Shown here: positions 10,766 through 34,371 of the stretch, one piece after another
How the letters are laid out: every line of letters starts with the position of its first letter
How positions within the stretch are numbered: the first letter of the stretch is position 1
Source of the DNA: Actinomyces sp. AC-20-1
GTDB lineage: Bacteria; Actinomycetota; Actinomycetes; Actinomycetales; Actinomycetaceae
Assembly (NCBI RefSeq): GCF_023369555.1
Contig: NZ_JACJVC010000007.1
Coordinates: 1 to 64,000 of the forward strand
Length of the DNA stretch: 64,000 nucleotides
Reading direction: 5' to 3'
Notes under the pieces: model-generated
What the model was told of the DNA's origin: nothing
What the model saw: only the letters and a program-made list of their open reading frames with translations
The model's database searches: none
Translations under genes and position numbers: made by a program

Positions 10766-10812
10766 TTGATACGGGGTCACCGGTCCACTGTCAAGCAAAT
10801 GTACGGACAAAG
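10766..10812 (-). promoter_or_regulatory. Promoter of the transaldolase-iolG unit with GntR-type box
   Basis: Reading leftwards, TTGACA (10794-10789), a 17-nt spacer and TATCAA (10771-10766) form a good promoter. Directly upstream is the box TGTACGGACA (10800-10809) flanked by A/T. The same box-then-promoter spacing occurs in front of iolC. Confidence 0.75.
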
Positions 10813-10834
10813 CGCGCCGGAGTGGCGCGCGGCC

Positions 10835-11611
10835 TCAGCCCGCGAAGAGCGTCGTCTCGAAGGAGTAGCGCGAGGCGCGGTAGATGTGCGTGCCGTACTC
10901 GACGACCCGTCCGTTGCCGTCGTAGGCGGTGCGCGTCATCGTCAGCAGGGCGGCACGACGGCTCTCCGACAGGGCCTGCGCCTCCTTCGTCGTCGCGTTG
11001 CGGGCGCCGATGGTCTGGGTGGCGGTGACCGGGACGGTGCCGTGCGCCCGGAGGTGGTCGTACAGGCCGGTGGTCTCGACCTGCTCGCGCGAGGGGGCCA
11101 GGTCCGCGGGCAGGAGGTTGCGCATGAGGGCGATGGGCTCGCCGTCGGCCAGGCGCAGGCGCTCGATGGTCACCGCCTCGCTGCCGGGCTCGACCTCCAG
11201 CCAGGCGGCCTGCTCCGGGGTCGTTGGTGCGCACTCGTAAGCCAGGACCCGGGTCTCGACCTCGTGGCCCGCGTCGGTGAGGTCGGACAGCAGGCTCGAC
11301 AGGTGCATCGGGCGGTGCACGTGCGAGGAGGTGACCACCGTGCCCGCACCGCGGCGCCGGGACAGCAGGCCGCGGTCGACGAGGTGCTGGAGGGCCTGGC
11401 GGGCGGTGGGTCTCGAGACCTTGAGGCGCTTGGCCATGGAGACCTCGTCCTCGAGGCGCGTGCCGGGAGGCAGTGTCCCGTCGAGGATGAGCCCCGCCAG
11501 CGGCGTCGAGATCTGGGTGTGCAGCGGCGTGGGGGAGGAGCGGTCGATCGTCACGTCGAGCCGGTACGGGTCGGACGGGGGAGCGGGGGGCTGGGGGGCG
11601 GAGTCGGCCAT
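10835..11611 (-). CDS. GntR/HutC-family transcriptional regulator (candidate IolR)
   Basis: A 258-residue regulator. The winged-helix domain (about residues 25-95) has PLHTQISTPLAGLILDGTLPPGTRL and the recognition segment LKVSRPTARQALQHLVDRGLL; the rest is a UTRA effector domain (about 110-250; SRRAALLTMTRTAYDGNGRVVEYG). The start at ATG 11611 is preferred over an upstream ATG at 11653 because the only good -10 (TATATC, 11659-11654) abuts that upstream codon. It is divergent from iolC. GntR proteins of this type bind TGT-N4-ACA palindromes, and such boxes flank it on both sides, so it is proposed as the inositol regulator. The effector is presumably an inositol-pathway intermediate (inference). 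Confidence 0.9.
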   Translation of the reverse strand: MADSAPQPPAPPSDPYRLDVTIDRSSPTPLHTQISTPLAGLILDGTLPPGTRLEDEVSMAKRLKVSRPTARQALQHLVDRGLLSRRRGAGTVVTSSHVHRPMHLSSLLSDLTDAGHEVETRVLAYECAPTTPEQAAWLEVEPGSEAVTIERLRLADGEPIALMRNLLPADLAPSREQVETTGLYDHLRAHGTVPVTATQTIGARNATTKEAQALSESRRAALLTMTRTAYDGNGRVVEYGTHIYRASRYSFETTLFAG

Positions 11612-11653
11612 GTCGGAGGTGCTGTCGATTCGTCGAGGGTGGTGGCGCCCCAT

Positions 11654-11659
11654 GATATA
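11654..11659 (-). promoter_or_regulatory. Candidate -10 element of the GntR gene
   Basis: TATATC on the minus strand about 45 nt upstream of the chosen start; no convincing -35. It places the transcript start downstream of the ATG at 11653, supporting the start at 11611. Confidence 0.4.
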
Positions 11660-11728
11660 GGGGAGGCTTGGCCGGTCGGGGCGCACGTGGCGTCACCATC
11701 TGGGCCGGTCGGACGTCGTCGGACACGA

Positions 11729-11774
11729 AATGTTCGGACAAAGACTTGACTGTGCTCCTCCGGTGGGGCAGTCT
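11729..11774 (+). promoter_or_regulatory. iolC operon promoter with GntR-type box
   Basis: TTGACT (11746-11751), 17 nt, then CAGTCT (11769-11774), about 67 nt upstream of iolC. The box TGTTCGGACA (11731-11740) lies just upstream of the -35, the same geometry as at 10.8 kb. Confidence 0.75.
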
Positions 11775-11840
11775 CGTCCCTGTGAGGGCCGCCACGGCCC
11801 CCTGACAGACCCGCCCCGACGACGTGGAAGGGACCCCACG

Positions 11841-12830
11841 ATGACCGCCTCCACCACCCCGCCGCTCGACGTCCTCACCATCGGTCGCTGCGGCATCGAC
11901 GTCTACCCCCTCCAGACCGGCGTCGGCCTCGAGGACGTCGAGACCTTCGGCAAGTTCCTGGGCGGCAGCCCGACGAACGTCGCCGTCGCCGCCGCCCGCT
12001 ACCGCCACCGCTCCGCCGTCATCACCGGCGTCGGCGACGACCCCTTCGGCCGCTTCGTGTGCCGCGAGATGCGCCAGCTGGGCGTCTACGACGACTACGT
12101 CGTCACCAAGCCCGACTTCAACACCCCGCTCACCTTCTGCGAGATCTTCCCCCCGAACAACTTCCCCCTCTACTTCTACCGCGAGCCCTCCGCCCCGGAC
12201 CTGGAGCTCACCGTCGACGACATCCCCATGGACGCCGTCCGCGACGCCCGGATCTTCTGGATCTCCGCCACCGGACTGAGCAAGGACCCCTCGCGCCAGG
12301 CCCACCACGCCGCCCTGGCGGCCCGCGCCCGCAAGCCCTTCACCATCGTCGACCTCGACTACCGGGCCAACTTCTGGGCCGACGAGGAGGAGGCCCACCG
12401 GCACGTGAGCGAGATCCTTCCCCAGGTCACCGTCGCCATCGGCAACCGGGAGGAGTGCCGCGTCGCCGTCGGGGAGACCGAGCCCGAGAGGGCCGCCGAC
12501 GCCCTGCTCGAGGCCGGCGTCGAGATCGCCATCGTCAAGCAGGGCCTGCACGGCACCCTCGCCAAGACCCGCGACGAGCGCGTCGAGCTGCCCGTCACCC
12601 CCGCCACCACCCTCAACGGGCTCGGCGCCGGCGACGCCTTCGGCGGGGCCGTCTGCCACGGCCTGCTGTCGGGCTGGTCCCTGGAGAAGACCATCTACGC
12701 CGCCTCCACCGCCGGCGCCATCGTCTGCGCCCGCCTCGAGTGCTCCACCGCCATGCCGACCGAGCCCGAGCTCCTGGCCGAGATGCGCACCTACCGCGAC
12801 GAGATCGCCCCGAACGTGAAGGACCTCTGA
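11841..12830 (+). CDS. iolC: 5-dehydro-2-deoxygluconokinase
   Basis: It phosphorylates 2-deoxy-5-keto-gluconate with ATP, the fifth step of myo-inositol breakdown. Start ATG 11841, with a ggaaggga ribosome-binding site, giving 329 residues of the PfkB/ribokinase fold. Visible: substrate-binding GGSPTNVAVAAARY (about 39-52), the IolC-typical FCEIFPPNNFPLYFYREPSAPD stretch (split motif, about 101-122), and the C-terminal anion-hole/ATP signature NGLGAGDAFGGA (about 259-270) with catalytic Asp. It is first gene of the iolC-aldolase-iolB-iolD operon, under a promoter with a GntR-type box. Confidence 0.95.
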   Translation: MTASTTPPLDVLTIGRCGIDVYPLQTGVGLEDVETFGKFLGGSPTNVAVAAARYRHRSAVITGVGDDPFGRFVCREMRQLGVYDDYVVTKPDFNTPLTFCEIFPPNNFPLYFYREPSAPDLELTVDDIPMDAVRDARIFWISATGLSKDPSRQAHHAALAARARKPFTIVDLDYRANFWADEEEAHRHVSEILPQVTVAIGNREECRVAVGETEPERAADALLEAGVEIAIVKQGLHGTLAKTRDERVELPVTPATTLNGLGAGDAFGGAVCHGLLSGWSLEKTIYAASTAGAIVCARLECSTAMPTEPELLAEMRTYRDEIAPNVKDL

Positions 12831-12836: not shown

Positions 12837-13715
12837 ATGACCGCCACACCCCTGACTGACCGCATCATCGAGACCCGGGTCCACGACCCCGGCCGCATCG
12901 CCGAGGTCCTGGCCGCCCGCCCCCGCGGGACGGTGCCCGAGGGTGACGGCAAGCTCATGATCATCGCCTGCGACCACCCCGCCCGGGGCGCGCTCGCGGC
13001 CGGAAGCGACCCCATGGCCATGGCCTCGCGCGAGGACACCCTCGCCCGCTGCGTCGAGGCCCTCTCGCGCCCCGGCGTCAACGGCTTCCTCGGCACCGCC
13101 GACCTCATCGAGGACCTCGCCCTCCTGGGCGCCCTGGACGGCAAGCTCGTCTACGGCTCGATGAACCGCGGCGGCCTGGCGGGCGCCACCTTCGAGATGA
13201 ACGACCGCATGACCGGCTACGACGCCCGGGGCGTGGCGGACTCCGGCCTCGACGGCGGCAAGATGCTGCTGCGCGTCAACTACGAGGACCCCCGCACCGT
13301 CGACACCCTCGCCGCCTGCGCCGAGGCCGTCAACGAGCTCGCCGAGCGCCGGGTCATGGCCATGGTCGAGCCCTTCATCTCCGCCTGGAGCAAGGGGCGC
13401 GTGGTCAACGACCTCAGCCCCGAGGCCGTCATCGCCTCCATGCACATCGCCTCCGGCCTGGGGCGCACGAGCGCCTACACCTGGCTCAAGCTCCCGGCCG
13501 TGGCCGACATGGAGCGCGTCATGGAGGCATCCACCCTGCCCGCCCTCATCCTCGGCGGCGCCGTGAGCCAGGACGCCGAGGCCGCGCGCGAGTCCTGGGC
13601 CAGGGCCCTGGACCTGCCCACCGTCAAGGGCCTGGTCATCGGCCGGTCCCTGCTCTTCCCGCCCGACGACGACGTCGCCGGGGCCGTCGACCAGACTGTA
13701 GGACTGCTCTCATGA
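12837..13715 (+). CDS. Class I aldolase-like (beta/alpha)8 barrel protein of inositol operons
   Basis: A 292-residue protein related to the DeoC/LacD/FBA class I barrel group and to the corynebacterial Cgl0158-type protein found next to iolC. It likely performs or supports cleavage of 2-deoxy-5-keto-gluconate 6-phosphate to dihydroxyacetone phosphate and malonate semialdehyde, the job of the class II aldolase IolJ in Bacillus; no IolJ-like gene is in the window. Visible: LMIIACDHPARGALAAG (about 40-56), GKMLLRVNYED (about 141-151; a lysine that could form the Schiff base is nearby), and YTWLKLPAVADM (about 215-226). It sits 6 bp after iolC and overlaps iolB by 4 bp, so it is translationally coupled. 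Confidence 0.8.
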   Translation: MTATPLTDRIIETRVHDPGRIAEVLAARPRGTVPEGDGKLMIIACDHPARGALAAGSDPMAMASREDTLARCVEALSRPGVNGFLGTADLIEDLALLGALDGKLVYGSMNRGGLAGATFEMNDRMTGYDARGVADSGLDGGKMLLRVNYEDPRTVDTLAACAEAVNELAERRVMAMVEPFISAWSKGRVVNDLSPEAVIASMHIASGLGRTSAYTWLKLPAVADMERVMEASTLPALILGGAVSQDAEAARESWARALDLPTVKGLVIGRSLLFPPDDDVAGAVDQTVGLLS

Positions 13716-14581
13716 CACTCGACCACTACGTGCCGGCCGGCAGCACCGGCCACGACTGCCTCACCGTCGACATCACGCCCGCCGACGCCGGCTGGGGGTT
13801 CTCCGGCCTGCGCGTGGCGGTCCTCGCCCCCGGCGGGTCGGTGACCCTCGAGACCGGTGACAGCGAGCTGCTCGTCCTGCCGCTCCAGGGCGGCTGCACC
13901 GTCGAGGTCGACGGCCACTCCTACGAGATCGCGGGCCGCACCGGCGTCCTCGAGCAGGTCACCGACTACCTCTACGTCCCGCGCGCCACGACCCTCGCCG
14001 TGACCTCGGCGGCCGGCGGGCGCTTCGCCTTCCCCTCCGCCGTCGCCGAGAAGGACCTGCCCGTGCGCCACCTGGGCCGCGAGCAGGCCACCACCGGTAT
14101 CCGCGGTGCGGGCGACTGCTCGCGCCAGGTGACCAACTACGCCCTCAACAACGGCGTGGAGACCTCCCACCTGCTCGTCACCGAGGTCATCACCCCGGGC
14201 GGCAACTGGTCCTCCTACCCGGCGCACAAGCACGAGGAGAACACCGACGACGAGCGCGAGCTCGAGGAGGTCTACTACTTCGAGATCGCGGCCTCGCCCA
14301 CCGGCGAGCCGGGCTTCGGCCTGCACCGCACCTACGGCTCGACGCCGGACAAGCCCATCAACCTGTGCCTGGAGGTCCACGACGGCGACGTCGTGCTCGT
14401 GCCCCACGGCTACCACGGGCCCTGCGTCGCCGCCCCCGGCTACGACATGTACTACCTCAACGTCATGGCCGGGCCGCAGACGGACCTCGTGTGGCTCGCC
14501 CCCGACGACCCGTCCCACCACTGGATCCGGCAGAGCTGGGAGGGCCAGCTGCCCGACCCGCGCCTGCCCATGGCCTACTGA
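13712..14581 (+). CDS. iolB: 5-deoxy-glucuronate isomerase
   Basis: It isomerises 5-deoxy-glucuronate to 2-deoxy-5-keto-gluconate. The 289 residues match the bicupin family. Metal-binding cupin residues are visible in SSYPAHKHEENTDD (about 169-182), ELEEVYYFEI (about 186-195) and VPHGYHGPC (about 230-238). The ATG overlaps the upstream stop (ATGA), and iolD follows after 109 bp on the same strand. Family assignment is firm from length, cupin signature and neighbours. Confidence 0.95.
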   Translation: MTLDHYVPAGSTGHDCLTVDITPADAGWGFSGLRVAVLAPGGSVTLETGDSELLVLPLQGGCTVEVDGHSYEIAGRTGVLEQVTDYLYVPRATTLAVTSAAGGRFAFPSAVAEKDLPVRHLGREQATTGIRGAGDCSRQVTNYALNNGVETSHLLVTEVITPGGNWSSYPAHKHEENTDDERELEEVYYFEIAASPTGEPGFGLHRTYGSTPDKPINLCLEVHDGDVVLVPHGYHGPCVAAPGYDMYYLNVMAGPQTDLVWLAPDDPSHHWIRQSWEGQLPDPRLPMAY

Positions 14582-14690: not shown

Positions 14691-16598
14691 GTGAGCAACG
14701 AAGCCTACGCGGGCACCATCCGCCTGACCGTCGCCCAGGCGACGATCCGGTTCCTCACCAACCAGTACTCCGAGCGCGACGGCGTCGAGCAGCGGCTCAT
14801 CGAGGGCGCCTTCGGCATCTTCGGGCACGGCAACGTCGCCGGCCTGGGCCAGGCGCTCCTCCAGAACGAGATCGCCCCCGACGAGGGCGAGGGCGAGATG
14901 CCCTACATCATGGCCCGCAACGAGCAGAGCGCCGTCCACGCCTCCGCCGCCTTCGCCAAGGTCAGGAACCGCCTGTCGACCTGGATGACCACGGCCTCCA
15001 TCGGCCCCGGCTCGCTCAACATGGTCACCGGTGCGGCCCTGGCCACCACCAACCGCGTCCCGGTCCTCCTCCTCCCCTCCGACCAGTTCGCCACCCGCGT
15101 TCCGGACCCGGTGCTCCAACAGCTCGAGGACCCGACGACGCTCGACATCACCGTCAACGACGCCTTCCGCCCCGTCTCGCGCTTCTTCGACCGCATCAAC
15201 CGCCCCGAGCAGCTCATCCCCTCGCTGCTGAACGCCATGCGCGTGCTCACCGACCCGGCCGAGACCGGCGCCGTCGTCATCGCGATGCCGCAGGACGTCC
15301 AGGCCGAGGTGCACGACTGGCCGGTCGAGCTCTTCCGCAAGCGCGTGTGGCACGTGCGCCGCCCACCGGCCGAGCCCGCCGCCCTGGCGCGCGCCGTCGC
15401 CATGATCAAGGCGGCCAAGCGCCCGATGGTCATCGCCGGCGGCGGGACCATCTACTCCGAGGCCAGCGAGGAGCTGCGCGCCTTCGCCACCGCCACCGGC
15501 ATCCCCGTGGCGGACACCCAGGCCGGCAAGGGCGCCATCAACTACGACCACCCCTGCGCCATCGGCGGGGTGGGCTCCACCGGCGGCGACTCCGGCAACC
15601 ACATCGCCGACAAGGCGGACCTGGTCATCGGCATCGGTACCCGCTACTCGGACTTCACCACGGCCTCCAAGACCCAGTTCAAGGACCCGGGCGTCACCTT
15701 CGTCAACATCAACGTCTGCGCCTTCGACGCGGCCAAGGAGTCGGCCGAGATGGTCGTCGCCGACGCCCGCGAGGCCCTCGTGGCCCTCACCGAGGCCCTG
15801 GACGGCTACCACGTGAGCGAGGAGTACGCCGCCGAGATCATGGCCGAGCGCGAGGCCTGGCACGAGCGCACCCGCGACTGCTACCACCTGGGCCACGGCC
15901 CGCTGCCCGCCCAGACCGAGGTCTTCGGAGTCCTCAACGAGATGATGGGCGACGAGGACATCGTCATCAACGCCGCCGGCTCCATGCCCGGTGACCTGCA
16001 GGCCCTGTGGCAGGCGCGCACGCCCGTCCAGTACCACGTCGAGTACGCCTTCTCCTGCATGGGCTACGAGGTCCCCGCCGGCCTGGGCTGCAAGCTCGCC
16101 CGTCCGGAGTCGGAGGTCGTGTCCATCATCGGTGACGGCACCTACCAGATGCTGCCCATGGAGCTGGCCACGGTGGTCCAGGAGGGCGTCAAGGTCATCT
16201 ACGTCCTCCTGCAGAACTACGGCTTCGCCTCCATCGGGGCCCTGTCGGAGTCGCGCGGCTCGCAGCGCTTCGGCACGAAGTACCGCCGGCGCGGCGCGGG
16301 CAGCCACCTGGCGGACACCGAGAGGATCCCGGGCGTCGACATCGCCGCGAACGCCGAGTCCTGGGGCCTGAAGGTCTACCGCGTGTCCTCCATCGAGGAG
16401 CTCCGTGAGGCCTACGCCCAGGCGCACGCCGACGACCGCGCCTCGATGATCCACATCGAGACCGACCTCATGGGCCCCAACCCGCCCAGCTCCTCCTGGT
16501 GGGACGTGCCGGTCTCGGGCGTCTCCCGCCTGGAGTCCACGCAGCAGGCCTACGAGCGCTACCTCGAGGACCGCAGGCCGCAGCGTCACTACCTGTGA
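14691..16598 (+). CDS. iolD: 3D-(3,5/4)-trihydroxycyclohexane-1,2-dione acylhydrolase (decyclising)
   Basis: A thiamine-diphosphate enzyme that hydrolytically opens the diketo-inositol ring to 5-deoxy-glucuronate. It starts with GTG and has 635 residues, the family length. Three ThDP-fold domains: PYR (about 1-200, glutamate in RNEQSAVHASAAFAK, about 71-85), central Rossmann-like (about 220-360), and PP domain with the diphosphate motif GDGTYQMLPMELA ending LLQN (about 481-510). It belongs to the acetolactate synthase-like family, but length, ring-opening-enzyme sequence and operon place it as IolD. It is last in the iolC operon; a terminator follows. Confidence 0.95.
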   Translation: MSNEAYAGTIRLTVAQATIRFLTNQYSERDGVEQRLIEGAFGIFGHGNVAGLGQALLQNEIAPDEGEGEMPYIMARNEQSAVHASAAFAKVRNRLSTWMTTASIGPGSLNMVTGAALATTNRVPVLLLPSDQFATRVPDPVLQQLEDPTTLDITVNDAFRPVSRFFDRINRPEQLIPSLLNAMRVLTDPAETGAVVIAMPQDVQAEVHDWPVELFRKRVWHVRRPPAEPAALARAVAMIKAAKRPMVIAGGGTIYSEASEELRAFATATGIPVADTQAGKGAINYDHPCAIGGVGSTGGDSGNHIADKADLVIGIGTRYSDFTTASKTQFKDPGVTFVNINVCAFDAAKESAEMVVADAREALVALTEALDGYHVSEEYAAEIMAEREAWHERTRDCYHLGHGPLPAQTEVFGVLNEMMGDEDIVINAAGSMPGDLQALWQARTPVQYHVEYAFSCMGYEVPAGLGCKLARPESEVVSIIGDGTYQMLPMELATVVQEGVKVIYVLLQNYGFASIGALSESRGSQRFGTKYRRRGAGSHLADTERIPGVDIAANAESWGLKVYRVSSIEELREAYAQAHADDRASMIHIETDLMGPNPPSSSWWDVPVSGVSRLESTQQAYERYLEDRRPQRHYL

Positions 16599-16763: not shown

Positions 16764-16809
16764 TTTGTATGGACAAATCCCTTGACCGGACGCCGTGTCG
16801 AATTAGAGT
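16764..16809 (+). promoter_or_regulatory. iolA promoter with GntR-type box
   Basis: TTGACC (16782-16787), 16 nt, TAGAGT (16804-16809), with the box TGTATGGACA (16766-16775) immediately upstream. iolA starts about 80 nt further on. Confidence 0.75.
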
Positions 16810-16889: not shown

Positions 16890-18383
16890 ATGAAGACGAT
16901 CCCGCACTGGATTGACGGCCAGGAGTACGAGGGCAGCCCCGTTGGCCGCTTCCCCGTCGAGAACCCGGGCACCGGCGAGGTCGAGGCCGAGCTGCTCCAG
17001 GCCTCGCCCGAGGACCTCGATCACGCCGTCGCCGTCGCCCGCCGGGCCCAGAAGGAGTGGGCGAAGGTCTCCCTGGCCAAGCGCACCGCCATCATGTTCA
17101 GGATGCGCCAGCTCGTCCTCGACCACCAGGACGAGATGGCCCGCCTCATCGTCGCCGAGCACGGCAAGAACTACTCCGACGCCATCGGCGAGATCCAGCG
17201 CGGGCGCGAGACCCTCGACTTCGCCACCTCCATCAACGTTGCCCTTAAGGGCGAGTGCTCCTCCGACATCTCCACCGGGGTCGACATCCACACCCTGCGC
17301 CAGCCGGTCGGCGTCGTCGGCGGCATCTGCCCCTTCAACTTCCCCGCCATGGTGCCGATGTGGATGCACCCCCTGGCCATCGCCACCGGCAACGCCGTGG
17401 TGATGAAGCCGGCCTCGGCCACGCCGTCGGCCATGCTGCTCACCGCCCGCCTCTACAAGGAGGCGGGGCTTCCCGACGGCGTCTTCAACGTCGTCTCCGG
17501 CAACCGCTCCATCGTCTCGGGCATCCTCGAGCACCCCGGCATCGACGCCATCTCCTTCGTCGGCTCCACGCCGGTGGCCCACATCGTCCAGAACATCGGC
17601 GTCACCCACGGCAAGCGCGTCCAGGCGCTGGGCGGGGCGAACAACCACGCCATCGTCATGCCCGACTGCGACCTCGACTTCGCCGCCCAGCATCTGTCCG
17701 CCGCGGCCTTCGGTGCCGCGGGCGAGCGCTGCATGGCCCTGCCGGTCGTCGTCGCGGTCGGCGGCTGCGGGCCCGAGCTCGCCCGCAAGGTCAAGGCCCA
17801 CGCCGAGAGGATCAAGGTCGGCTACGGCATGGATGAGGGCGTCGAGATGGGGCCCGTCATCGACGCCAAGGCCAAGGAGTTCATCGTCGGCCTGGTCAAC
17901 GAGGGTGAGGCCGACGGCGGTGAGGTCGTCCTCGACGGCCGCGGCCTCGTGGTCCCCGGGCACGAGAAGGGCCACTTCGTGGGCCCGACCATCGTCGACA
18001 ACGTCCCGGTGACCTCGCGCCTGTACAGGGAGGAGGTCTTCGGGCCGGTCCTCACCATCGTCCACGCGGACACCTACGAGGAGGCCATCGCCATCGTCAA
18101 CGCCTCCGAGTTCGGCAACGGCTCGGCGATCTTCACCAACGACGGCGGTGTGGCCCGCCGCTTCACCCTCGACGTCGAGGCGGGCATGGTCGGGGTCAAC
18201 GTCCCGATCCCGACGCCGGTGGCCTACTACTCGTTCGGCGGCTGGAAGGAGTCGCTGCTGGGCGACCACCACATCCACGGCCCGGAGGGCGTGCGGTTCT
18301 ACACCAGGGCCAAGGCCGTCACGACCCGCTGGCCGTCCGAGAAGACCTACGCCGCCACCATGTCCTTCCAGCGCGAGGAGTGA
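16890..18383 (+). CDS. iolA: CoA-acylating methylmalonate/malonate-semialdehyde dehydrogenase
   Basis: It converts malonate semialdehyde, NAD+ and CoA to acetyl-CoA, CO2 and NADH, the last step of the pathway. Start ATG 16890, ten nucleotides after an ACTCAGGAG site; the frame extends upstream without family similarity. The 497 residues have the aldehyde dehydrogenase fold: cofactor-binding PFNFPAMVPMWMHPLAIATG (about 147-166), oxyanion/glycine motif VGSTPVAHIV (about 225-234), and catalytic cysteine in FGAAGERCMAL (about 272-282, Cys279). It is monocistronic, with its own box-bearing promoter and a terminator behind. Confidence 0.95.
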   Translation: MKTIPHWIDGQEYEGSPVGRFPVENPGTGEVEAELLQASPEDLDHAVAVARRAQKEWAKVSLAKRTAIMFRMRQLVLDHQDEMARLIVAEHGKNYSDAIGEIQRGRETLDFATSINVALKGECSSDISTGVDIHTLRQPVGVVGGICPFNFPAMVPMWMHPLAIATGNAVVMKPASATPSAMLLTARLYKEAGLPDGVFNVVSGNRSIVSGILEHPGIDAISFVGSTPVAHIVQNIGVTHGKRVQALGGANNHAIVMPDCDLDFAAQHLSAAAFGAAGERCMALPVVVAVGGCGPELARKVKAHAERIKVGYGMDEGVEMGPVIDAKAKEFIVGLVNEGEADGGEVVLDGRGLVVPGHEKGHFVGPTIVDNVPVTSRLYREEVFGPVLTIVHADTYEEAIAIVNASEFGNGSAIFTNDGGVARRFTLDVEAGMVGVNVPIPTPVAYYSFGGWKESLLGDHHIHGPEGVRFYTRAKAVTTRWPSEKTYAATMSFQREE

Positions 18384-18483: not shown

Positions 18484-18557
18484 TGTTCGCACAAAAGGCT
18501 GGCGTGACGGCTGGAGGGGGCGTATCCTGGAGCGTGAGACCGAAACGATTCGGTCTC
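18484..18557 (+). promoter_or_regulatory. Control region of the IolE-like/iolG unit: GntR-type box, -10 and a second palindrome
   Basis: The box TGTTCGCACA (18484-18493) is followed by TATCCT (18523-18528), a good -10 with only a weak -35. Between the -10 and the start codon is a perfect 9-bp-arm palindrome (18536-18544 and 18549-18557, loop ACGA, centre CGAAACGATTCG). Its CG-centred form is typical of LacI-family operators. Confidence 0.65.
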
Positions 18558-20669: not shown

Positions 20670-20721
20670 TCTGGCGCGCGTCAAAATGTCGTGACATACT
20701 GACTTCCATCGACAATGTCGT
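20670..20721 (+). promoter_or_regulatory. Control region of iolH with GntR-type box
   Basis: TGTCGTGACA (20687-20696) overlaps a candidate -10 CATACT (20695-20700) with a weak -35. A degenerate half of the LacI motif (GCGCGCGTCAA) lies just upstream, and a small palindrome CGACAATGTCG (20711-20721) follows. Positions favour real regulation of iolH, but the promoter is weakly defined. Confidence 0.5.
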
Positions 20722-25449: not shown

Positions 25450-25482
25450 TGTCCTGACAAATCAGCCTTCATTCGCTAGGCT
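25450..25482 (+). promoter_or_regulatory. Alcohol dehydrogenase promoter overlapping a GntR-type box
   Basis: CTGACA (25454-25459), 17 nt, TAGGCT (25477-25482). The box TGTCCTGACA (25450-25459) covers the -35 itself, so binding should repress. Confidence 0.7.
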
Positions 25483-27876: not shown

Positions 27877-27886
27877 TGTCAGGACT
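27877..27886 (-). promoter_or_regulatory. GntR-type box upstream of iolE
   Basis: TGTCAGGACT with A/T-rich flanks, one mismatch from TGTNNNNACA, about 100 nt upstream of iolE. No convincing promoter hexamers could be assigned. Confidence 0.5.
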
Positions 27887-27945
27887 AAGTGTGGTCCAGG
27901 GGGGTGTGGGGCCCGGTGAGCGCCACCGGGCCCCACACCGCCGGG

Positions 27946-29601
27946 TCAGGAGAAGCGCTCCTGCATGTCGCGCTCGATCTGCTCCAGGGAGCGGTTGTGC
28001 GTCTCGGGCATGATCTTGAACAGGACCACCGCGATGACGAGGTTGAGCAGGCCGTAGAAGGTGTAGGTGAGCCCGCCGCCCAGGCCCTCCATCATCTTGG
28101 GGAAGGTCCAGGTGATGGCCGCGTTCGCGATCCACATGCAGAAGATGGCCGTGCCGTTCATGACGCCGCGCACGTTGGACGGGAAGATCTCGCCCATCAT
28201 CGTCCACACGACCGTGCCGTTGGAGGACTGCACGATGAGCATGAACACGCCCATGAGGGCGAGGATGAGGTAGGCGGCCCAGGCCGGGGGAGTGGTGCCT
28301 GCGGTGATGTGCGGGGCGATGGTGAAGTGGAAGGTCGCCGCGATGCCCAGCAGGGTCACGCCGACGCCGGTGACGTCGGCGATGAGGATCTGACGACGGC
28401 GGAAGCGCCCGATGAGCCAGATGCCCAGGGCCGATCCGACGACGGAGAAGGCGCCGTTGGCGACCTGCGAGGTGATGGCCGCGGAGGTGCCCATGCCCGC
28501 GTAGGACAGGACCTTCGGGGCGTAGTACATGACGGTGTTGACGCCGGTGGTCTGGTTGATGACCGCCAGGAAGATGCCGACCAGGAGGAGCTTGCGCAGC
28601 CAGGGGACCGACCAGACGTAGGTCAGGCCGCGCTTGCTGGCCTCCTCCTCCAGCTCGTGCTGGCGGGCCTCGACCATCTCCATGAGCTCGTCCTCGACGG
28701 GGCCGTCCTTGGACTCGTCTCGCACCCGCTTGAGCGAGCCGATGGCCTCGTACAGGCGCTCCTTGGCGATGTACCAGCGCGAGGACTCGGGCATGAGGCG
28801 GATGCCGATCCACAGGGCGATGGCGGGCACCGAGCACAGGACGAGCATGTAGCGCCAGGCCTGGCCGTTGCCCGAGCTGACGACGAGCTGGTCGAGGAAG
28901 GCGTGGAAGGCGGCCTCGTCCAGGCTGCCGCCGTTGGCGGCGGACAGGGCGGTGATGTCGTCGTAGGCGTAGGAGCCCGCGGTGAGGGTCCCCGACGGGT
29001 CGGACTCGATGGTGAGGTGGGGCCCGCCGTTGGCGGCGGAGATGGCCGCGTTCATCGTGAAGGCGAGCATCTGGCCGGTGACGATCATGAGCTGGTCGAC
29101 GGCGACGATGGAGCCGCGGATGCGCTTGGGCGCGGACTCCGCCAGGTAGACCGGCACGGTGGCGCTCGCGCCACCGACGGCCAGGCCCAGGATGAAGCGG
29201 AAGGGGTACATCACCCACACGTTCGGCGCGACGGTGGTGCCCAGGGCGCCGATGAGGAAGATGATGGCCAGCATCGTGATGTTGTGGCGGCGTCCGTAGC
29301 GGTCGGACAGGCGGCCGCCGAAGAGCGCGCCGAAGGCGGCGCCGACGAGCAGGAAGCCTCCGACGGCGCCCTCCTCCAGGGCGGTCAGCTGCAGGCCGTC
29401 GGCGCCGTGGGGCATGTACATGTAGGGCAGCGCACCGGAGATGACGCCGGTGTCATAGCCGAAGAGCAGGGAGCCGATGGTGGCGACGGCGGCCACGGCG
29501 ACGATGCCGCGGCGCTTGCCCGAGGGGGGCGTGGCGGCCACGGCCTCCTTCATCTGGGCCGGGGTGATCCCCTTGAGGGAGATCGGGGCAGGGGTGCTCA
29601 T
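27946..29601 (-). CDS. MFS sugar porter (inositol-type)
   Basis: A 551-residue sugar-porter permease with 12 predicted helices. Start ATG 29601 behind AGGAGAC. Signatures: GSLLFGYDTGVISGALPYMY (TM1), GGRLSDRYGRRHNIT, MPESSRWYIAKERLYEA, NQTTGVNTVMYYAPKV (TM7), and PETHNRSLEQIERDM at the C-terminus. It shares the cytosolic TPPSGKRR lead with the other two porters and has a loop insertion between TM5 and TM6 (about 195-250). It lies 47 bp downstream of the dehydrogenase at 29649 and is co-transcribed with it, under combined LacI- and GntR-type sites. Confidence 0.9.
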   Translation of the reverse strand: MSTPAPISLKGITPAQMKEAVAATPPSGKRRGIVAVAAVATIGSLLFGYDTGVISGALPYMYMPHGADGLQLTALEEGAVGGFLLVGAAFGALFGGRLSDRYGRRHNITMLAIIFLIGALGTTVAPNVWVMYPFRFILGLAVGGASATVPVYLAESAPKRIRGSIVAVDQLMIVTGQMLAFTMNAAISAANGGPHLTIESDPSGTLTAGSYAYDDITALSAANGGSLDEAAFHAFLDQLVVSSGNGQAWRYMLVLCSVPAIALWIGIRLMPESSRWYIAKERLYEAIGSLKRVRDESKDGPVEDELMEMVEARQHELEEEASKRGLTYVWSVPWLRKLLLVGIFLAVINQTTGVNTVMYYAPKVLSYAGMGTSAAITSQVANGAFSVVGSALGIWLIGRFRRRQILIADVTGVGVTLLGIAATFHFTIAPHITAGTTPPAWAAYLILALMGVFMLIVQSSNGTVVWTMMGEIFPSNVRGVMNGTAIFCMWIANAAITWTFPKMMEGLGGGLTYTFYGLLNLVIAVVLFKIMPETHNRSLEQIERDMQERFS

Positions 29602-29648
29602 GGTGAGGGTGTCTCCTGAGGGTTGGGATGGATGGACAAGTCTGAGGG

Positions 29649-30845
29649 TCAGGCGTCGAAGGTCGTGGTGCCGGTGACACGGGCGACGTCGTGCCACCGG
29701 CCGTCGGCCGCCGAGGCGACGACCGCCTCGTCGACCTCGGCCGCGCACCAGGCGTCGGCCGCGGAGGGGGCGAGCTGCTCGCCGGTGAGGACGGAGCGGA
29801 TGAGCTGCGCGGCCTCGATGGACTTGAGGTCGTCGAAGCCCATCGAGGTGCCGATGGCCGGCTGGTAGCGCGACCACTCTCCCCAGGAGGGGTTGGCCCA
29901 GGCGCGCTGGTAGCCGTGGGTGGGGCCGCCGTCGACGCTCGTGCAGACCTCGAGCTCGTTGAGGGAGGCGAAGTCCCAGCGGGCCGAGCCCTCGGTGCCG
30001 TAGACCTCGACGACGTACTCGGCGCGGGGGCCGACGCTCGCCCGGGAGGACTCCATGGTGGCCAGGGCCCCGTTGTCGAAGCGCACGAGCATGCCGACGT
30101 AGTCCTCGTTCTCGACCGGGCCGACCTCGTCGCCGATCTCGAAGCCCGAGTGGCCGAAGCCTGTCTTGGTGGGGATGGGCCGCTCGGTGATGAAGGTGCC
30201 GGTCATGGCGGAGACGGAGGCGATGCGGCCGATAATGTACTGGGCGAGGTCCGCGCCGTGGCTCATGAGGTCGGGCACCACCCCGGCGCCGGCCTTGGCG
30301 CGCGAGCTGCGCCAGGTGAGCGGCCCCCGGGGCGAGGAGGCGTAGTCCGCGATGAACCAGACGCGGGCGTTGGTGACGCGCCCGAGCCTGCCGCTGCGCA
30401 CCATCTCGCGCATGTACTCGATGGCGGGGACGTGGCGGTAGTTGAAGCCGACGGCGTTGACGAGCCCGGCGGCTGCGGCGGCCTCGGCGATCTCGCGCGA
30501 CTCGGCGGCGCTGACGCCCATGGGCTTCTCGATCCAGAAGGGCTTGCCGGCGGTGATGGCGGCCAGCGCGATCTCCTTGTGGAGGTAGTTGGGCGAGGCG
30601 ATGGAGACGACCTCGACCTCGGGGTCGGCAAGGAGGTCACGGTAGTCGGCGTAGGCCCGCTCGAAGCCCAGGTCCTCGGTGGCGGCTCGCTGGGCCTGCT
30701 CCACGGGGTCGGCCGCGGCGACGAGGCGGGCCTCGACACCGAGCTCGGGGAAGCGCTCCGACAGGGAGTGGTAGCTGCGGGCGTGCAGGCGGCCCATCCA
30801 CCCCAGGGAGATGACACCGACGCCGATCTGCTTCTTGCTGCTCAT
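29649..30845 (-). CDS. Gfo/Idh/MocA-family dehydrogenase
   Basis: A 398-residue NAD(P)-dependent oxidoreductase. Start ATG 30845 after AAAGGGG. Rossmann-type motif SLGWMGRLHARSYHSL (GxxxxG variant), catalytic-lysine motif IEKPMGVS (about 103-110) and C-domain VPDLMSHGADLAQYIIG (about 191-207), with Asp and His in the usual positions. It is more divergent from IolG than the other three paralogues and may act on another inositol isomer, an inosose or a sugar acid. It is first gene of an operon with the porter at 27946. Confidence 0.86.
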   Translation of the reverse strand: MSSKKQIGVGVISLGWMGRLHARSYHSLSERFPELGVEARLVAAADPVEQAQRAATEDLGFERAYADYRDLLADPEVEVVSIASPNYLHKEIALAAITAGKPFWIEKPMGVSAAESREIAEAAAAAGLVNAVGFNYRHVPAIEYMREMVRSGRLGRVTNARVWFIADYASSPRGPLTWRSSRAKAGAGVVPDLMSHGADLAQYIIGRIASVSAMTGTFITERPIPTKTGFGHSGFEIGDEVGPVENEDYVGMLVRFDNGALATMESSRASVGPRAEYVVEVYGTEGSARWDFASLNELEVCTSVDGGPTHGYQRAWANPSWGEWSRYQPAIGTSMGFDDLKSIEAAQLIRSVLTGEQLAPSAADAWCAAEVDEAVVASAADGRWHDVARVTGTTTFDA

Positions 30846-30915
30846 GGCCCCTTTAGTCTCCTCACGGCCTCCGTCGGCCTGCTGGCGGCGACGGGTCCTC
30901 GTCGGCCCATCGTCG

Positions 30916-30994
30916 GTAACGCGCGTCATCATTGGCGCAGGGGCGACGGTAGAGCATCGCCAGGTCGACGGTCAAGGACCTCATTGTCTGGACT
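30916..30994 (-). promoter_or_regulatory. Promoter of the dehydrogenase-porter operon with both regulatory motifs
   Basis: Reading leftwards: GntR-type box (30994-30985, complement TGTCTGGACT), TTGACC (30975-30970), 18 nt, TACCGT (30951-30946), then a LacI-type site GTAACGCGCGTCAT (30916-30929) near the transcript start. It is the one promoter here that carries both motifs. Confidence 0.7.
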
Positions 30995-31129: not shown

Positions 31130-32131
31130 TCAGCCTCGTCGCATGGTGCTGCCCCGGGGGACCAGCCCCGCCGGGACCGTCCGGTCGGCGGGGGCGTCCT
31201 CGGGGCCGAGGGCGGCCGACAGCGCGTAGGCCATGAGCTGCTCCGGGTGCTGGTTGACGCTCGTCACGCGCAGCTCGGAGCGCTCGGCCAGGGCGGAGTC
31301 GTCGTAGGACGACACCCCCAGGTCCTCGGGGACCGCGATCCCCAGCGCCAGCCCCGCCGCGACGACGTCGATGGCGAGCAGGTCGTTGTAGGCGATGACG
31401 CCCAGGGGGCCGCTCCCCTCTCCCGCCGCTGCGGCGAGCGCGTCGCGCACCCCGCCGTCGGCGCTCACCTCGGTCAGGGCCAGCCCCTGACGGGCGGCCT
31501 CCGCGCGGTTGGCCTCGAGCCGCTCGAGGACCAGGGGCTCGCGGCGCGCCCTCGCGGGGGAGAAGAAGGCGAGGCGCTGGTAGCCCTGCTCCCTGAGGTG
31601 GGTGACCGTCAGCCGCGCGGCGTGCGCCTCGTCCAGGCGCACCGTCGGGACCCCCGACTCCCGCGGCAGCGTGCGGTCCACGACGCACAGGGGGACGAGG
31701 CGGTTGAGGTCGACGAGCTCGTCCACCCGCAGCGTCGTGCCCGGGAGGATGAGGCCCGCCGGGCGCAGCGACAGCACGTCGTCAACCGTCGAGTGCTCCG
31801 CCTGGTCCTCCAGGTCGGACAGGAAGGCCACCAGCGTGTACCCGCTCTGGCGCGCACGACGTCGCAGCGCGCGCAGCAGCCGGTCGAAGAAGGGGTTGTC
31901 CAGGTAGGGCACGATGATCGCCACCCGGTGGGAGCGGCGCGCGGCCAGCTCCGCGGCCGCGGCGTTGGTCCGGTAGCCCAGGGCGTGGGCGGCGTCGAGG
32001 ACCCGGCGGCGGGTCTCCTCCGACATCCGCCCCTCGCCCTTGAGCGCCAGGGAGACGAGACCGCGTGAGACGCCGGCGGCGTCGGCCACGTCCTGCTGGG
32101 TGGCAGGGGTGCTGCGGGCTGACCGGGCCAT
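31130..32131 (-). CDS. LacI-family transcriptional regulator
   Basis: A 333-residue regulator starting at ATG 32131. HTH TQQDVADAAGVSRGLVSLALKG (about 11-32), hinge, then effector domain (VAIIVPYLDNPFFDRLLRAL ... GVSSYDDSALAERSELRVTSVNQ). The DNA-recognition helix is nearly the same as in the LacI protein at 3865 and differs from that at 7445. It is transcribed leftwards towards the dehydrogenase-porter operon and divergent from the decayed porter. It might read the CG-centred palindrome at 18536, but no site is seen next to its own gene. Confidence 0.9.
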   Translation of the reverse strand: MARSARSTPATQQDVADAAGVSRGLVSLALKGEGRMSEETRRRVLDAAHALGYRTNAAAAELAARRSHRVAIIVPYLDNPFFDRLLRALRRRARQSGYTLVAFLSDLEDQAEHSTVDDVLSLRPAGLILPGTTLRVDELVDLNRLVPLCVVDRTLPRESGVPTVRLDEAHAARLTVTHLREQGYQRLAFFSPARARREPLVLERLEANRAEAARQGLALTEVSADGGVRDALAAAAGEGSGPLGVIAYNDLLAIDVVAAGLALGIAVPEDLGVSSYDDSALAERSELRVTSVNQHPEQLMAYALSAALGPEDAPADRTVPAGLVPRGSTMRRG

Positions 32132-32327: not shown

Positions 32328-32337
32328 TGTCAGAACA
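32328..32337. promoter_or_regulatory. GntR-type box between divergent LacI and decayed-porter genes
   Basis: TGTCAGAACA followed by AAT, in the 310-bp divergent gap. A candidate -10 TAGTGG (32347-32352) follows for the plus-strand gene, but no good -35 is visible. Confidence 0.5.
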
Positions 32338-32441
32338 AATGCATCCTAGTGGGTACCCGGGGCCCTTGACGGGCCCCTCCGCCCGGGGCGCCGGCCCTGG
32401 GTGCCCTGCGCGCACCGACGCGCCGCACAGGAAGGCCGCCG

Positions 32442-33803
32442 ATGACGCCTGCGCCCCGCCCCGCCGCGCAGCTGCGCCTGCGCGCCCTGCTCGTCTTCGC
32501 CGGATCGGCCCACGGAGCGGCCTGGGGCGCCCTCGGCATGACGCTCCTGGACGACGACGCCGCGCCCGCCCTCCTGGCCCTCGCCGGCCCGCGGACGGCG
32601 ACGGACGCCGACCTGCTCACCTGCCTGCTGCTCGTCGCGGCCCTCCCCCTCGGCTCCCTCATGGGCGCCCCCGCGCTCGACCGCCTCTCCCACGCCCTGG
32701 GACGGCGCCCCGCCGTCATGACCGCGGCCGCCCTCATCGCCGTCGGCGCCCTGCTGCCCGCCCTCGACGGGCCGCTCCCGGCGCTCGCGGGGGCGCTCGC
32801 CGTCGGCCTCGGGCTGGGCGGCCTCACCATCGTCCTGCCCAAGGTCGCCCACGAGCTCGCCGCCCGGGGCCACCGCCGGCTCATGCCGCGCACGTGGGCC
32901 GTGGCCCCGGCAGGTGCCGCCGGGGCCACGGCGGCCGGCGCCCTCGCCTCGCTCGCCGAGCCCCGCGGCGCTGTCACCGGGGCCTGGGCCGTGCCCGCCG
33001 TCCTCGCCCTGCTCGTGCTCCTGCTCGCCACGACACTGCCCGAGACCCCGCACTGGTACGCGGCCCAGAACCGGCTCGAGCCCGCCCACGCCTCACTCAA
33101 GCGCATGCACGGCGCCCTTGAGGCCGCCGTCGGCATCGACTGGGTCGTCCTGGACGCGGGCACCCGTGGCGACCAGGCCCGGCTCGGCCGTTGCGACCTC
33201 GCGATCCGCCGCGTGCGCCAGGTCGTGGTCGCGGGCCTGCTGCTCGAGCTCGTCCAGGCCCTCCCAATGGGGCTGGCGGCCCTCGTGCTCACACCGCTGC
33301 TCCTGGCCGCCCGGGTCCCCGGGGGCCGCTCCGCCGCCGGGCCCCTCATCGTGCTCGCCCTGCTCTGGGGCGCCGTCGGGGCCTGCGGCCTGCTGCGCCG
33401 TCGCACCCACCGCCTCGCCTACGCGTGGATCATGGCCGGGACCGGGGTGTCGGCCTGCGGGAGCGTCCTGCTGGCCCTGCTCGGCTCCTTCGGCCGGGTC
33501 AGCGACGTCGTCGTGCTGCTCCTCGCCTCCACCCTCATGGTCGCCGGGCAGTACCTGGCCGTCGTGCCCGCCTGCGCCGGAGCGGTCGACCCTCTCGTGC
33601 CGCCCTGGCTGCTGCGCTCGCAGAGGCGCGCCGTGGCCGCGCTGCGGCCCCTCGTCCAGCTGCTCTGCGTCGGGGGCGCGGTGCTGCTCCTCGCGCTCGC
33701 GCCGTCGTCGGACGTCATGCTGGGGCTCGTGCTGGGCGGCCAGCTCCTCAGCATGATCCTGGCCCTGCTCGCGCTGCCTCGGGCTGTTGCGGCCCTGCGG
33801 TGA
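32442..33803 (+). CDS. Diverged MFS sugar-porter-like membrane protein
   Basis: A 453-residue protein with about 10-12 hydrophobic helices. It keeps traces of a sugar porter: DRLSHALGRRPAVM (loop 2-3, normally D-R-x-G-R-R) and LPETPHWYAAQNRLEPAHASLKRMHG (split motif, about 195-220), which aligns with PESSRWYIANQR...LKRI of the intact neighbours. The N-terminal FGYDTG motif and the TM7 Q-TG-N motif are missing, and the usual C-terminal PETK tail is absent, so transport of the normal substrates is doubtful. It has no frameshift and keeps strong codon bias, so it is not an obvious pseudogene. It might be a sensor or transceptor; this is speculation. Confidence 0.7.
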   Translation: MTPAPRPAAQLRLRALLVFAGSAHGAAWGALGMTLLDDDAAPALLALAGPRTATDADLLTCLLLVAALPLGSLMGAPALDRLSHALGRRPAVMTAAALIAVGALLPALDGPLPALAGALAVGLGLGGLTIVLPKVAHELAARGHRRLMPRTWAVAPAGAAGATAAGALASLAEPRGAVTGAWAVPAVLALLVLLLATTLPETPHWYAAQNRLEPAHASLKRMHGALEAAVGIDWVVLDAGTRGDQARLGRCDLAIRRVRQVVVAGLLLELVQALPMGLAALVLTPLLLAARVPGGRSAAGPLIVLALLWGAVGACGLLRRRTHRLAYAWIMAGTGVSACGSVLLALLGSFGRVSDVVVLLLASTLMVAGQYLAVVPACAGAVDPLVPPWLLRSQRRAVAALRPLVQLLCVGGAVLLLALAPSSDVMLGLVLGGQLLSMILALLALPRAVAALR

Positions 33804-33847
33804 GGGTGCGGTGAGGGCTGGGGCCGACGGGGCCCGGTGACGCGAAA

Positions 33848-33873
33848 GAGCGCTGACCGCAGGGTCAGCGCTC
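33848..33873. terminator. Terminator between the decayed porter and the small membrane protein
   Basis: An 11-bp perfect stem (33848-33858 with 33863-33873) and 4-nt loop; on the minus strand it is followed by TTTCGC, so it best serves the gene at 33980. Confidence 0.65.
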
Positions 33874-33979
33874 ATGCTGGGTGGCCCCGAGGGCCCGGTG
33901 GCAGCGCGGTCCGCGTTGGCCGCGCTGCGCGGGAGGGTGGGGCGTGTCGCCGTCCTCCGGTTCGTGCCCGACGGGCAGG

Positions 33980-34231
33980 TCAGGCGGCGATGATGTTGAT
34001 GCCGGTGTAGACGCCCACCATCGTGGCGACGCTGCCCGTCAGGCCTGCGGTGACGACCAGGAGCGGGGAGCCGACGACGACGCCCACGACGGCCATGAGG
34101 GTGAGGACGACGGCGACCATGGTCATGCCGACCTTGAAGGTCAGCAGGTCGGCGGCCCTGGCCTCGTCCCTGTCGGAGGCGGCCCGGGCGGGGGCGGTGG
34201 TGGTGACGGTGTCGATGACGGGAGCGCTCAT
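33980..34231 (-). CDS. Small two-helix membrane protein of unknown function
   Basis: An 83-residue protein (MSAPVIDTVTTTAPARAASD...) starting at ATG 34231 behind AGAGGAAC. After a polar, Ala/Thr-rich 30-residue head come two predicted transmembrane segments (about 34-53 and 57-80) ending in GVYTGINIIAA. It is not recognised as a member of a named family. Its promoter overlaps a GntR-type box of the same form as those of the iol operons, so it is probably co-induced with inositol catabolism. It might assist a transporter; nothing in the sequence proves this. Confidence 0.75.
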   Translation of the reverse strand: MSAPVIDTVTTTAPARAASDRDEARAADLLTFKVGMTMVAVVLTLMAVVGVVVGSPLLVVTAGLTGSVATMVGVYTGINIIAA

Positions 34232-34337
34232 GTCGTGTTCCTCTCGGTTCCTGCGCGGAACCGTCCGGAACGGAGAGGCTCCGCACGGCGGTGTGCCCGG
34301 CTCGAGGCCGGTGCCAGCCCGGTGGGCTGACGGGACG

Positions 34338-34371
34338 AGCGTAGGCGCCTCGCCCTCAACATGTCCAGACA
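34338..34371 (-). promoter_or_regulatory. Promoter of the small membrane protein overlapping a GntR-type box
   Basis: Reading leftwards: TGGACA (34367-34362), 18 nt, TACGCT (34343-34338). The box TGTCCAGACA (34362-34371) covers the -35. Confidence 0.65.

Follow-up and report, generated by a model that had tools for sequence, protein, structure and literature searches.

Conserved palindromes as putative operators of a GntR/UTRA regulator of inositol genes in Actinomyces

Inositol regulators of actinobacteria and the Actinomyces cluster

GntR-type repressors of inositol genes are already known in actinobacteria, and by analogy the Actinomyces set described here would be a further case. As presented in titles and citing passages, IolR of Corynebacterium glutamicum is a GntR-type repressor of inositol uptake and breakdown genes (Klaffl 2013), and SCO6974 of Streptomyces coelicolor is a GntR-type repressor of inositol catabolism (Yu 2015). 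For SCO6256, a second S. coelicolor GntR protein, a paper title reports conditional regulation of inositol genes. For the LacI-type regulator IpsA, a passage of PMC3899939 places the sites upstream of the -35 element where genes are activated, and on the core promoter where they are repressed.

The locus analyzed here lies in a 64,000-nt stretch of DNA, hereafter the window, from Actinomyces sp. AC-20-1 (GCF_023369555.1; NZ_JACJVC010000007.1, positions 1-64,000, forward strand). The genes of its inositol cluster are as follows:

8568..9575, minus strand: Gfo/Idh-type dehydrogenase (PF01408, PF02894), downstream of the transaldolase-like gene; start approximate
9626..10702, minus strand: divergent transaldolase-like protein (TAL_FSA; PF00923, 128 bits); the NCBI transaldolase model NF002881, whose cut-off is 367, gives it 105 bits
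10835..11611, minus strand: GntR/UTRA (HutC-type) regulator, candidate IolR; ATG at 11611, with an upstream GTG at 11686 possible
11841..12830, plus strand: iolC (TIGR04382, above cut-off)
12837..13715, plus strand: Cgl0159-like protein (PF22649), candidate IolJ aldolase by position
13712..14581, plus strand: iolB (TIGR04378, above cut-off)
14691..16598, plus strand: iolD (TIGR04377, above cut-off)
16890..18383, plus strand: iolA, methylmalonate-semialdehyde dehydrogenase (TIGR01722, above cut-off)
18589..19518, plus strand: IolE-like dehydratase (TIGR04379, 146 bits, below the cut-off of 290)
19553..20560, plus strand: IolG-like inositol dehydrogenase (NF052679, 369 bits, below the cut-off of 540)
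20744..21616, plus strand: iolH-type TIM-barrel protein (PF01261), named iolH by position in the sequence-only reading
21763..23349, plus strand: sugar porter of the MFS type (PF00083)
23591..25228, minus strand: sugar porter of the MFS type (PF00083)
25533..26678, plus strand: zinc-binding alcohol dehydrogenase (PF00107, PF08240)
26854..27780, minus strand: TIM-barrel epimerase/isomerase-type protein (PF01261)
27946..29583, minus strand: sugar porter of the MFS type (PF00083); start approximate
29649..30932, minus strand: Gfo/Idh dehydrogenase, levoglucosan-dehydrogenase-like (NF052479, 270 bits, below the cut-off of 650)
31130..32131, minus strand: LacI-type regulator (PF00356, PF13377), overlooked in the sequence-only reading
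32442..33803, plus strand: divergent but intact porter (PF00083, 64 bits)
33980..34231, minus strand: 83-aa membrane protein

The porter at 32442..33803 had been described as decayed; this description does not hold, as its frame is intact and related proteins occur in three other genomes (84% identity in G171; 56-57% over part of the length in G173 and G149). Relatives of the 83-aa membrane protein occur in the same genomes (73% in G171, 52% in G149 and 41% in G173), each with a box of the kind described below nearby.

The cluster shares with the C. glutamicum system, as known from titles and citing passages, a GntR regulator of inositol genes and also, as the PF22649 family name indicates, a Cgl0159-like gene. 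The likeness to the SCO6974 system is seen through GntR relatives 49-54% identical in Streptomyces loci other than that of S. coelicolor itself, where, in those read, the gene adjoins iolC, J, B and D, and often A; the box recurs there, in most cases at an unchanged spacing. The Actinomyces cluster differs from that system in also containing genes for a transaldolase-like protein, an alcohol dehydrogenase, porters, a LacI-type regulator and a small membrane protein. The Actinomyces GntR protein exceeds the cut-offs of both PF00392 (47 bits) and PF07702 (127 bits) and has the build of the GntR/HutC-UTRA subfamily, with an N-terminal winged helix and a C-terminal UTRA domain. Its nearest solved structures, 2ra5, YvoA and DasR, have the same two-domain build, and the first two align over nearly the whole length of the protein; these HutC/UTRA regulators have other ligands and other central bases.

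Sequence and specificity of the ten boxes

Ten TGT-N4-AC(A/T) boxes had been proposed as operators, all in intergenic DNA. A motif scan recovered every one at its claimed coordinate, and by our own gene starts all ten are indeed intergenic, in a region (8568-36147) where intergenic DNA makes up 3313 of 27,580 bases (~12%):

Box 1, 10800..10809: 97 bp upstream of the transaldolase-like gene, with TTGACA 5 bp on
Box 2, 11731..11740: between GntR and iolC; the iolC TTGACT lies 5 bp on
Box 3, 16766..16775: before iolA; 6 bp before TTGACC
Box 4, 18484..18493: upstream of iolE-iolG; a weak -35 (CTGGCG) 5 bp on, with TATCCT
Box 5, 20687..20696: 47 bp before iolH; in a promoter spacer ending at CATACT (by eye)
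Box 6, 25450..25459: between a sugar porter (minus) and the zinc alcohol dehydrogenase (plus); overlaps the -35 CTGACA, with TAGGCT 17 bp on
Box 7, 27877..27886: 99 bp upstream of the TIM-barrel epimerase-type gene (minus)
Box 8, 30985..30994: 52 bp before the Gfo/Idh-porter operon (minus); the weakest of the ten (11.5 bits)
Box 9, 32328..32337: between the LacI gene (minus) and the divergent porter (plus)
Box 10, 34362..34371: 130 bp before the 83-aa membrane protein gene (minus); overlaps the -35 TGGACA, with TACGCT 18 bp on

Eight of the ten are full TGT-N4-ACA palindromes, while those at 27877 and 30985 end in ACT. The motif of C. glutamicum IolR is reportedly KGWCHTRACA, which by eye fits just one of the ten exactly (25450). 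A literature search for this string found no paper, one on IolR binding had a Salmonella paper as its sole match, and for a transaldolase in inositol regulons nothing evidently relevant appeared among the matches listed.

The bare core behaves as it would if the boxes were chance A/T-rich palindromes that happen to be intergenic: TGT-N4-ACW matches 23 times in the window against 18.1 expected from shuffles, and TGT-N4-ACA has 61 matches over the 2.70-Mb genome, fewer than the 110 of its reversed control. Being enriched in neither, the core was rejected as a signal, and A/T flanks and conservation were therefore needed. With three A/T on each side, WWWTGTNNNNACWWW has eight distinct genome sites, all at 10.8-32.3 kb of the window, and 11 strand matches genome-wide versus 2 for the reversed control. 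With one mismatch it recovers all ten boxes and seven other genome sites (eight strand matches elsewhere); the reversed control, allowed the same, has 15 strand matches genome-wide.

Because this pattern had been shaped on the window, a matrix was trained on relatives, using 91 distinct boxes, themselves chosen by core and A/T flanks, and leaving out the window and G171 (91% identical in GntR). It gives the ten boxes ranks 1-10 in the 64 kb, with scores from 11.5 to 27.2 bits. A palindrome at 36198 with G/C flanks comes directly after them with 2.1 bits and was not counted. In 40 Markov-generated sequences of 64 kb, matches of at least 10 bits arose at 0.175 per sequence, the highest being 17.9. 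Of the seven one-mismatch sites elsewhere, the best two scored 13.4 and 12.0 bits, above box 30985; both fall inside possible reading frames, and no regulon targets outside the cluster are claimed. When palindromic triplets were counted de novo over 28 relatives' loci, TTT-N8-AAA, which overlaps the box, came first of 886 words and TGT-N4-ACA fourth; in the window alone, TGT-N4-ACA fell outside the top eight, all of them GC-rich words.

The A/T-flanked form is confined to the cluster, and the matrix places the ten first. This confinement and ranking, together with counterparts at the same genes in relatives, make a chance origin exceedingly improbable, and conservation contradicts it directly.

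Conservation of the boxes and their candidate reader

All ten boxes have counterparts in the closest relative, G171, the iolA one being degenerate. We read 40 kb from each of 10 Actinomyces genomes near the top of the list of 46 with a GntR match: in 10 of 10 stretches, boxes stand at both iolC/GntR and the transaldolase-like gene. A box precedes iolA in six Actinomyces stretches. Among the distal boxes, box 6 has counterparts in G171, G173, G149, G152, G180 and G183, box 7 in G171 and G149, box 8 in G171 (14.9 bits) and, weaker, in G173 (10.5) and G149 (9.1), and box 10 in G171; the porter behind box 9 is also preceded by a box in G171, G173 and G149.

Across 81 loci from relatives (L002 and 80 named ones), we counted 167 A/T-flanked boxes versus 8 of the reversed control, with at least one box in 73 loci. 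Five of the eight box-less loci were read, and all five have TGTCCGGACA with GC-richer flanks; the GntR proteins beside it share a recognition-helix consensus identical to that of other Streptomyces proteins. The idea that loci without iol genes lack boxes (L064, L067, L073, L078, L080, L081) was dropped because five of these six (not L078) had the box with GC-richer flanks, missed by the filter. The comparison with relatives supports the proposal of one operator set defining one inositol regulon.

The GntR protein at 10835, between two of the boxes, had been named as their reader, and its co-occurrence with the boxes across lineages lends support to this assignment. At E<=1e-40 it has matches in 46 of 49 genus genomes, the window's own included, which carry 2-18 boxes each; the three without a match have 0, 1 and 0, a joint absence that may follow from pathway loss. 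Three genomes with a match do not exceed the reversed control (G175, 2 vs 4; G159, 5 vs 5; G164, 5 vs 6), and outside the genus box counts are often no higher than control. The box and the GntR gene co-occur in Actinomyces and further Actinomycetaceae as well as in Propionibacterium and Streptomyces, the gene being kept beside or within the iol cluster and the palindrome shared at iol promoters. On this evidence, the GntR/UTRA protein is the best candidate reader.

A different division of labor would have the LacI-type regulator read all boxes, or the distal ones (25450-34362), leaving GntR the iol core. Its gene does lie in the distal half with a box in front, and the four proximal boxes start with TGTA or TGTT versus TGTC in the six from 20687 on. 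However, LacI relatives (E<=1e-60) occur in just 17 of 49 genus genomes, its own included, and many boxes occur without one (11 in G151, 10 in G162, 11 in G168); the alcohol dehydrogenase box is present in G152 and G180, both without a LacI relative. The boxes also lack the fixed central CG that, as a passage of PMC3899939 puts it, LacI-family operators usually carry. Such a palindrome instead precedes iolE separately:

18540..18553, plus strand: second operator CCGAAACGATTCGG, a central-CG palindrome in LacI style, just after the iolE -10

It is kept in relatives, and CCGAANCGNTTCGG has one exact copy in the genome, at this site. Since boxes occur without LacI, we rejected it as their reader and consider such a role quite improbable.

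Promoter geometry and mode of action

Taken together, these sequence comparisons make it very probable that the ten boxes are operators of the GntR/UTRA regulator (10835-11611), which would be this bacterium's IolR and repress its inositol genes. We infer that a GntR dimer would bind TTTGTC-N2-GACAAA-like palindromes and hold these genes off until it is released by an inositol breakdown product that binds its UTRA domain. Polymerase would be blocked from 5-6 bp upstream of the -35 at iolC, the transaldolase-like gene, iolE and iolA, from on top of the -35 at the alcohol dehydrogenase and small membrane protein genes, and inside the promoter spacer at iolH (by eye). The regulator probably also governs its own gene and the LacI-type gene.

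Of the boxes said to lie directly upstream of a -35, those at 10800 (5 bp), 11731 (5) and 16766 (6) do so, but 30985 is 9 bp away rather than 5-6; the overlap claimed for 25450 and 34362 was confirmed. Boxes 27877 and 32328 gave no clear promoter fit in the surrounding window sequence. In Actinomycetaceae and Propionibacterium relatives, TTGAC follows 4-6 bp after 91 of 154 boxes, at exactly 5 bp in 63, and in the Streptomyces-type set at exactly 5 bp after 117 of 142. A smaller group of boxes in relatives sits about 11 bp closer to the promoter.

Simple occluding repressors less usually hold so strict a place upstream of the -35, and this position counts against repression by GntR. It would suit a GntR activator, or a dual regulator that activates from upstream of the -35 and represses on the core promoter, a rule similar to that described for IpsA in passages of PMC3899939. 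Several iolA and iolE promoters also have a weak -35, with TANNNT still 28-29 bp from the box. Yet paper titles describe both published GntR inositol regulators of actinobacteria as repressors, and the iolC and transaldolase-like promoters, with good TTGAC -35 hexamers, need no activator by sequence. We regard activation or dual action as unlikely; it is compatible with GntR as the protein that reads the boxes.

Also unlikely is the idea that the regulator, beyond covering the promoter, touches RNA polymerase on one helical face, position encoding the outcome. Boxes stand either 4-6 bp ahead of the -35 or roughly one turn nearer, on it, and Actinomycetaceae and Streptomyces share the 4-6 bp spacing. 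If true, the upstream place would mean activation or a held polymerase and the -35 place occlusion, and one signal would switch the core pathway in one way and peripheral porters and dehydrogenases in another.

With GntR as the probable repressor, the gene neighborhood would become a defined regulon, its candidate reader named and its predicted operators located exactly. Four porters and the alcohol dehydrogenase, transaldolase-like, LacI-type and small membrane protein genes would be tied to inositol use in Actinomyces, and the strict operator-promoter spacing in two lineages raises the question of how GntR/UTRA repressors act.

Boxes in the window and across the genome

All ten boxes proposed in the sequence-only reading, putative operators with a TGT-N4-AC(A/T) core and A/T flanks that start at 10800, 11731, 16766, 18484, 20687, 25450, 27877, 30985, 32328 and 34362, were found in place, and the observation is confirmed. 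Eight are complete TGT-N4-ACA palindromes, and boxes 27877 and 30985 have an ACT end. Their intergenic position likewise held for all ten, in a region (8568-36147) where intergenic DNA makes up just 12.0% by our own gene starts. The frequency of the bare TGT-N4-ACW core is not unusual, with 23 matches in the window against 18.1 expected, a count reached by 19 of 100 shuffles. Across the genome (2,695,776 bases in 47 contigs), TGT-N4-ACA occurs 61 times versus 110 for a reversed control of the same pattern. When three A/T are required on each side, eight distinct sites are found, all at 10.8-32.3 kb of the window, versus two control matches; with one mismatch allowed, this flanked pattern retrieves all ten boxes and only seven other sites (eight strand matches), versus 15 strand matches for its reversed control.

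Since the flanked pattern had been shaped on the window, boxes were gathered instead from relatives' loci, which had been located by their GntR protein, independently of the motif. A symmetric matrix of 91 distinct 18-mers, excluding the window and its nearest relative, genome G171, placed the ten boxes at ranks 1-10 of the 64 kb (27.2 to 11.5 bits), with rank 11, at 36198, scoring 2.1 bits; the training boxes had been selected by the core plus four or more A/T among six flanking bases. Forty equally long first-order Markov sequences yielded 0.175 hits per sequence at 10 bits or more (top hit 17.9). A selection-free count of all palindromic triplets with gaps of 0-14 ranked TTT-N8-AAA first and TGT-N4-ACA fourth among 886 words in 28 relatives' loci; when only the window was counted, the latter word fell outside the top eight.

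Co-occurrence of boxes and candidate regulators

The following genes and site are relevant here:
9626-10702: transaldolase-like protein, scoring far under NCBI's transaldolase cut-off
10835-11611: GntR regulator, with a GntR winged helix and a UTRA domain
31130-32131: LacI-type regulator inside the cluster, with a box in front, passed over in the sequence-only reading
18540-18553: palindrome CCGAAACGATTCGG, LacI-like in its central CG, immediately following the iolE -10

The closest named relatives of the GntR gene are from Actinomyces (74% in locus L003, 68-69% in A. ruminicola and A. ruminis), and the bacterium is treated as an Actinomyces on that basis. At E<=1e-40, relatives occur in 150 of 213 family genomes and, by row count, in 46 of 49 genus genomes (counting that of the window). 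Among these 46, ten high-ranking Actinomyces genomes were examined over the 40 kb around GntR: a box lies between GntR and iolC, and one before the transaldolase-like gene, in every stretch. Some stretches have additional boxes before iolA (6), iolE (4 boxes), iolH (4 boxes, 2 genomes), the alcohol dehydrogenase (3) and a second TIM-barrel gene. G171 has counterparts of all ten boxes at the same genes, the iolA counterpart being degenerate (CGTCAGGACA). About 18 kb of other DNA separates iolA from iolD in that genome (L113, L167), with boxes kept in both parts.

Among named relatives (80 loci, 21 inspected in full and the remainder by counts), the association extends to A. ruminicola, A. ruminis, two Actinomycetaceae MAGs, Propionibacterium australiense and many Streptomyces. 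With locus L002 added, the 81 loci hold 167 A/T-flanked boxes versus 8 matches to the reversed pattern. No A/T-flanked box is present in eight loci; two of them (L037, L053) are contigs starting inside the iol operon or shortly before it. Five of the other six were examined and show a Gfo/Idh gene beside GntR, with no iol match there. These five each hold TGTCCGGACA, flanked by GC-richer sequence and placed 5 bp ahead of a TTGACA on the opposite strand, and their GntR recognition-helix consensus equals that of 68 other Streptomyces-type proteins.

Strict boxes number 2 to 18 per genome in the 46 genus genomes with a GntR match and 0, 1 and 0 in the three without, a co-absence that may mirror joint loss of pathway and regulator. 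Counts do not exceed the control in three GntR-bearing genomes (G175, 2 vs 4; G159, 5 vs 5; G164, 5 vs 6), and often not outside the genus. The recurrence of box and GntR together across Actinomycetaceae, Propionibacterium and Streptomyces supports the earlier proposal that GntR is the candidate reader of the boxes.

The LacI protein, itself encoded within the cluster, is an unlikely reader, because many boxes lie in genomes without it; relatives at E<=1e-60 occur in just 17 of 49 genus genomes. Its gene is more likely a target of box regulation, with a regulatory cascade possible. The second palindrome, before iolE, has one exact copy of CCGAANCGNTTCGG in the whole genome, which is this site. 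The palindrome is found at seven loci of relatives (L004, L005 and stretches of G180, G183, G157, G187 and G170), before iolE in all except L005, which has no tabled iolE match and carries it in the same place, and also in G171, G173 and G149; Propionibacterium L042 has an iolE match and no match to the palindrome. G180, G187 and G170 keep it although they lack any close relative of the LacI protein of the window, so its reader need not be LacI.

Promoter spacing and mode of action

Relatives' sequences are not independent, so the following counts measure conservation and are no tally of independent events: TTGAC lies exactly 5 bp after the box in 63 of 154 distinct boxes from Actinomycetaceae and Propionibacterium (within 4-6 bp in 91) and in 117 of 142 boxes of the Streptomyces-type set (74 loci), where 101 boxes have a TTGAC at 37 bp because tandem boxes are 32 bp apart. 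The reversed pentamer gave 16 and 9 matches in all, respectively, the former including a single peak of 7 at -15. Pairs 32 bp apart, about three helical turns, occur in many Streptomyces loci and in L008 (3473 and 3505), where each box lies 5 bp from its own divergent TTGAC. Separate promoters offer a stronger argument for the spacing rule than pooled counts: in the ten Actinomyces stretches, TTGAC lies 4-6 bp from the box at two unrelated promoters, iolC (10/10) and the transaldolase-like gene (10/10), and at no other gene.

Among 267 box sides without TTGAC at 4-6 bp, TANNNT stands 28-29 bp off at 21 and 17-18 bp off at 16, two peaks one helical turn apart over a mean of about two per offset, with smaller peaks of nine at +2 and -4. 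By reading rather than count, the first group would have a weak -35 at about +5 (iolA, iolE), the second a box on the -35 (alcohol dehydrogenase, a porter), and the iolH box would lie inside a promoter spacer ending at CATACT. In the window, boxes 10800 and 11731 are 5 bp from the -35, 16766 is at 6, 18484 is at 5 from a weak -35, and 25450 and 34362 are on it; 27877 and 32328 have no clear promoter fit. The geometry first described is right for the other boxes that it covered and needs correction for 30985, which had been put directly upstream of the -35 and lies 9 bp off.

In the most likely mechanism, a GntR dimer would occupy the box and block polymerase, and an inositol intermediate would free it. 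We infer repression from the iolH box and by analogy with two like regulators, IolR of C. glutamicum and SCO6974 of S. coelicolor, described as repressors in passages of PMC12298647, PMC9603128 and PMC6295645 and in a title cited by PMC6608401. A less likely activating or dual role for GntR would suit the fixed upstream placement and those promoters whose -35 is weak, and passages of PMC3899939 give a position rule of such kind for IpsA, a LacI-type inositol regulator; the rival readings are not mutually exclusive.

Genes of the inositol cluster

The cluster contains iolC, a Cgl0159-like gene, iolB, iolD and iolA, IolE-like and IolG-like genes scoring under NCBI's cut-offs, and two TIM-barrel genes, one iolH-type. 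It further holds four sugar porters, one of them divergent, along with a zinc alcohol dehydrogenase, two more dehydrogenases of Gfo/Idh type, the divergent transaldolase-like gene and a small protein:
33980-34231: 83-aa membrane protein, whose relatives in G171, G149 and G173 lie close to a box

Box 34362 overlaps the putative -35 of this last gene. The porter earlier called decayed has an intact frame; it is matched at 84% identity in G171, and in G173 and G149 a part of it is matched at 56-57%. In the Actinomyces stretches, the transaldolase-like gene mostly has a Gfo/Idh gene after it.

For inositol genes and GntR regulation in Actinomyces, a library of mostly open-access papers turned up a single survey paper, PMC9430895, with neither "operator" nor "binding site" in its main text. 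The interpretation of the boxes as a regulon read by GntR is supported; it belongs to a known kind of GntR-type inositol regulon, of which this one is new, and its transaldolase-like protein may represent a new aldolase or transaldolase step in inositol use.
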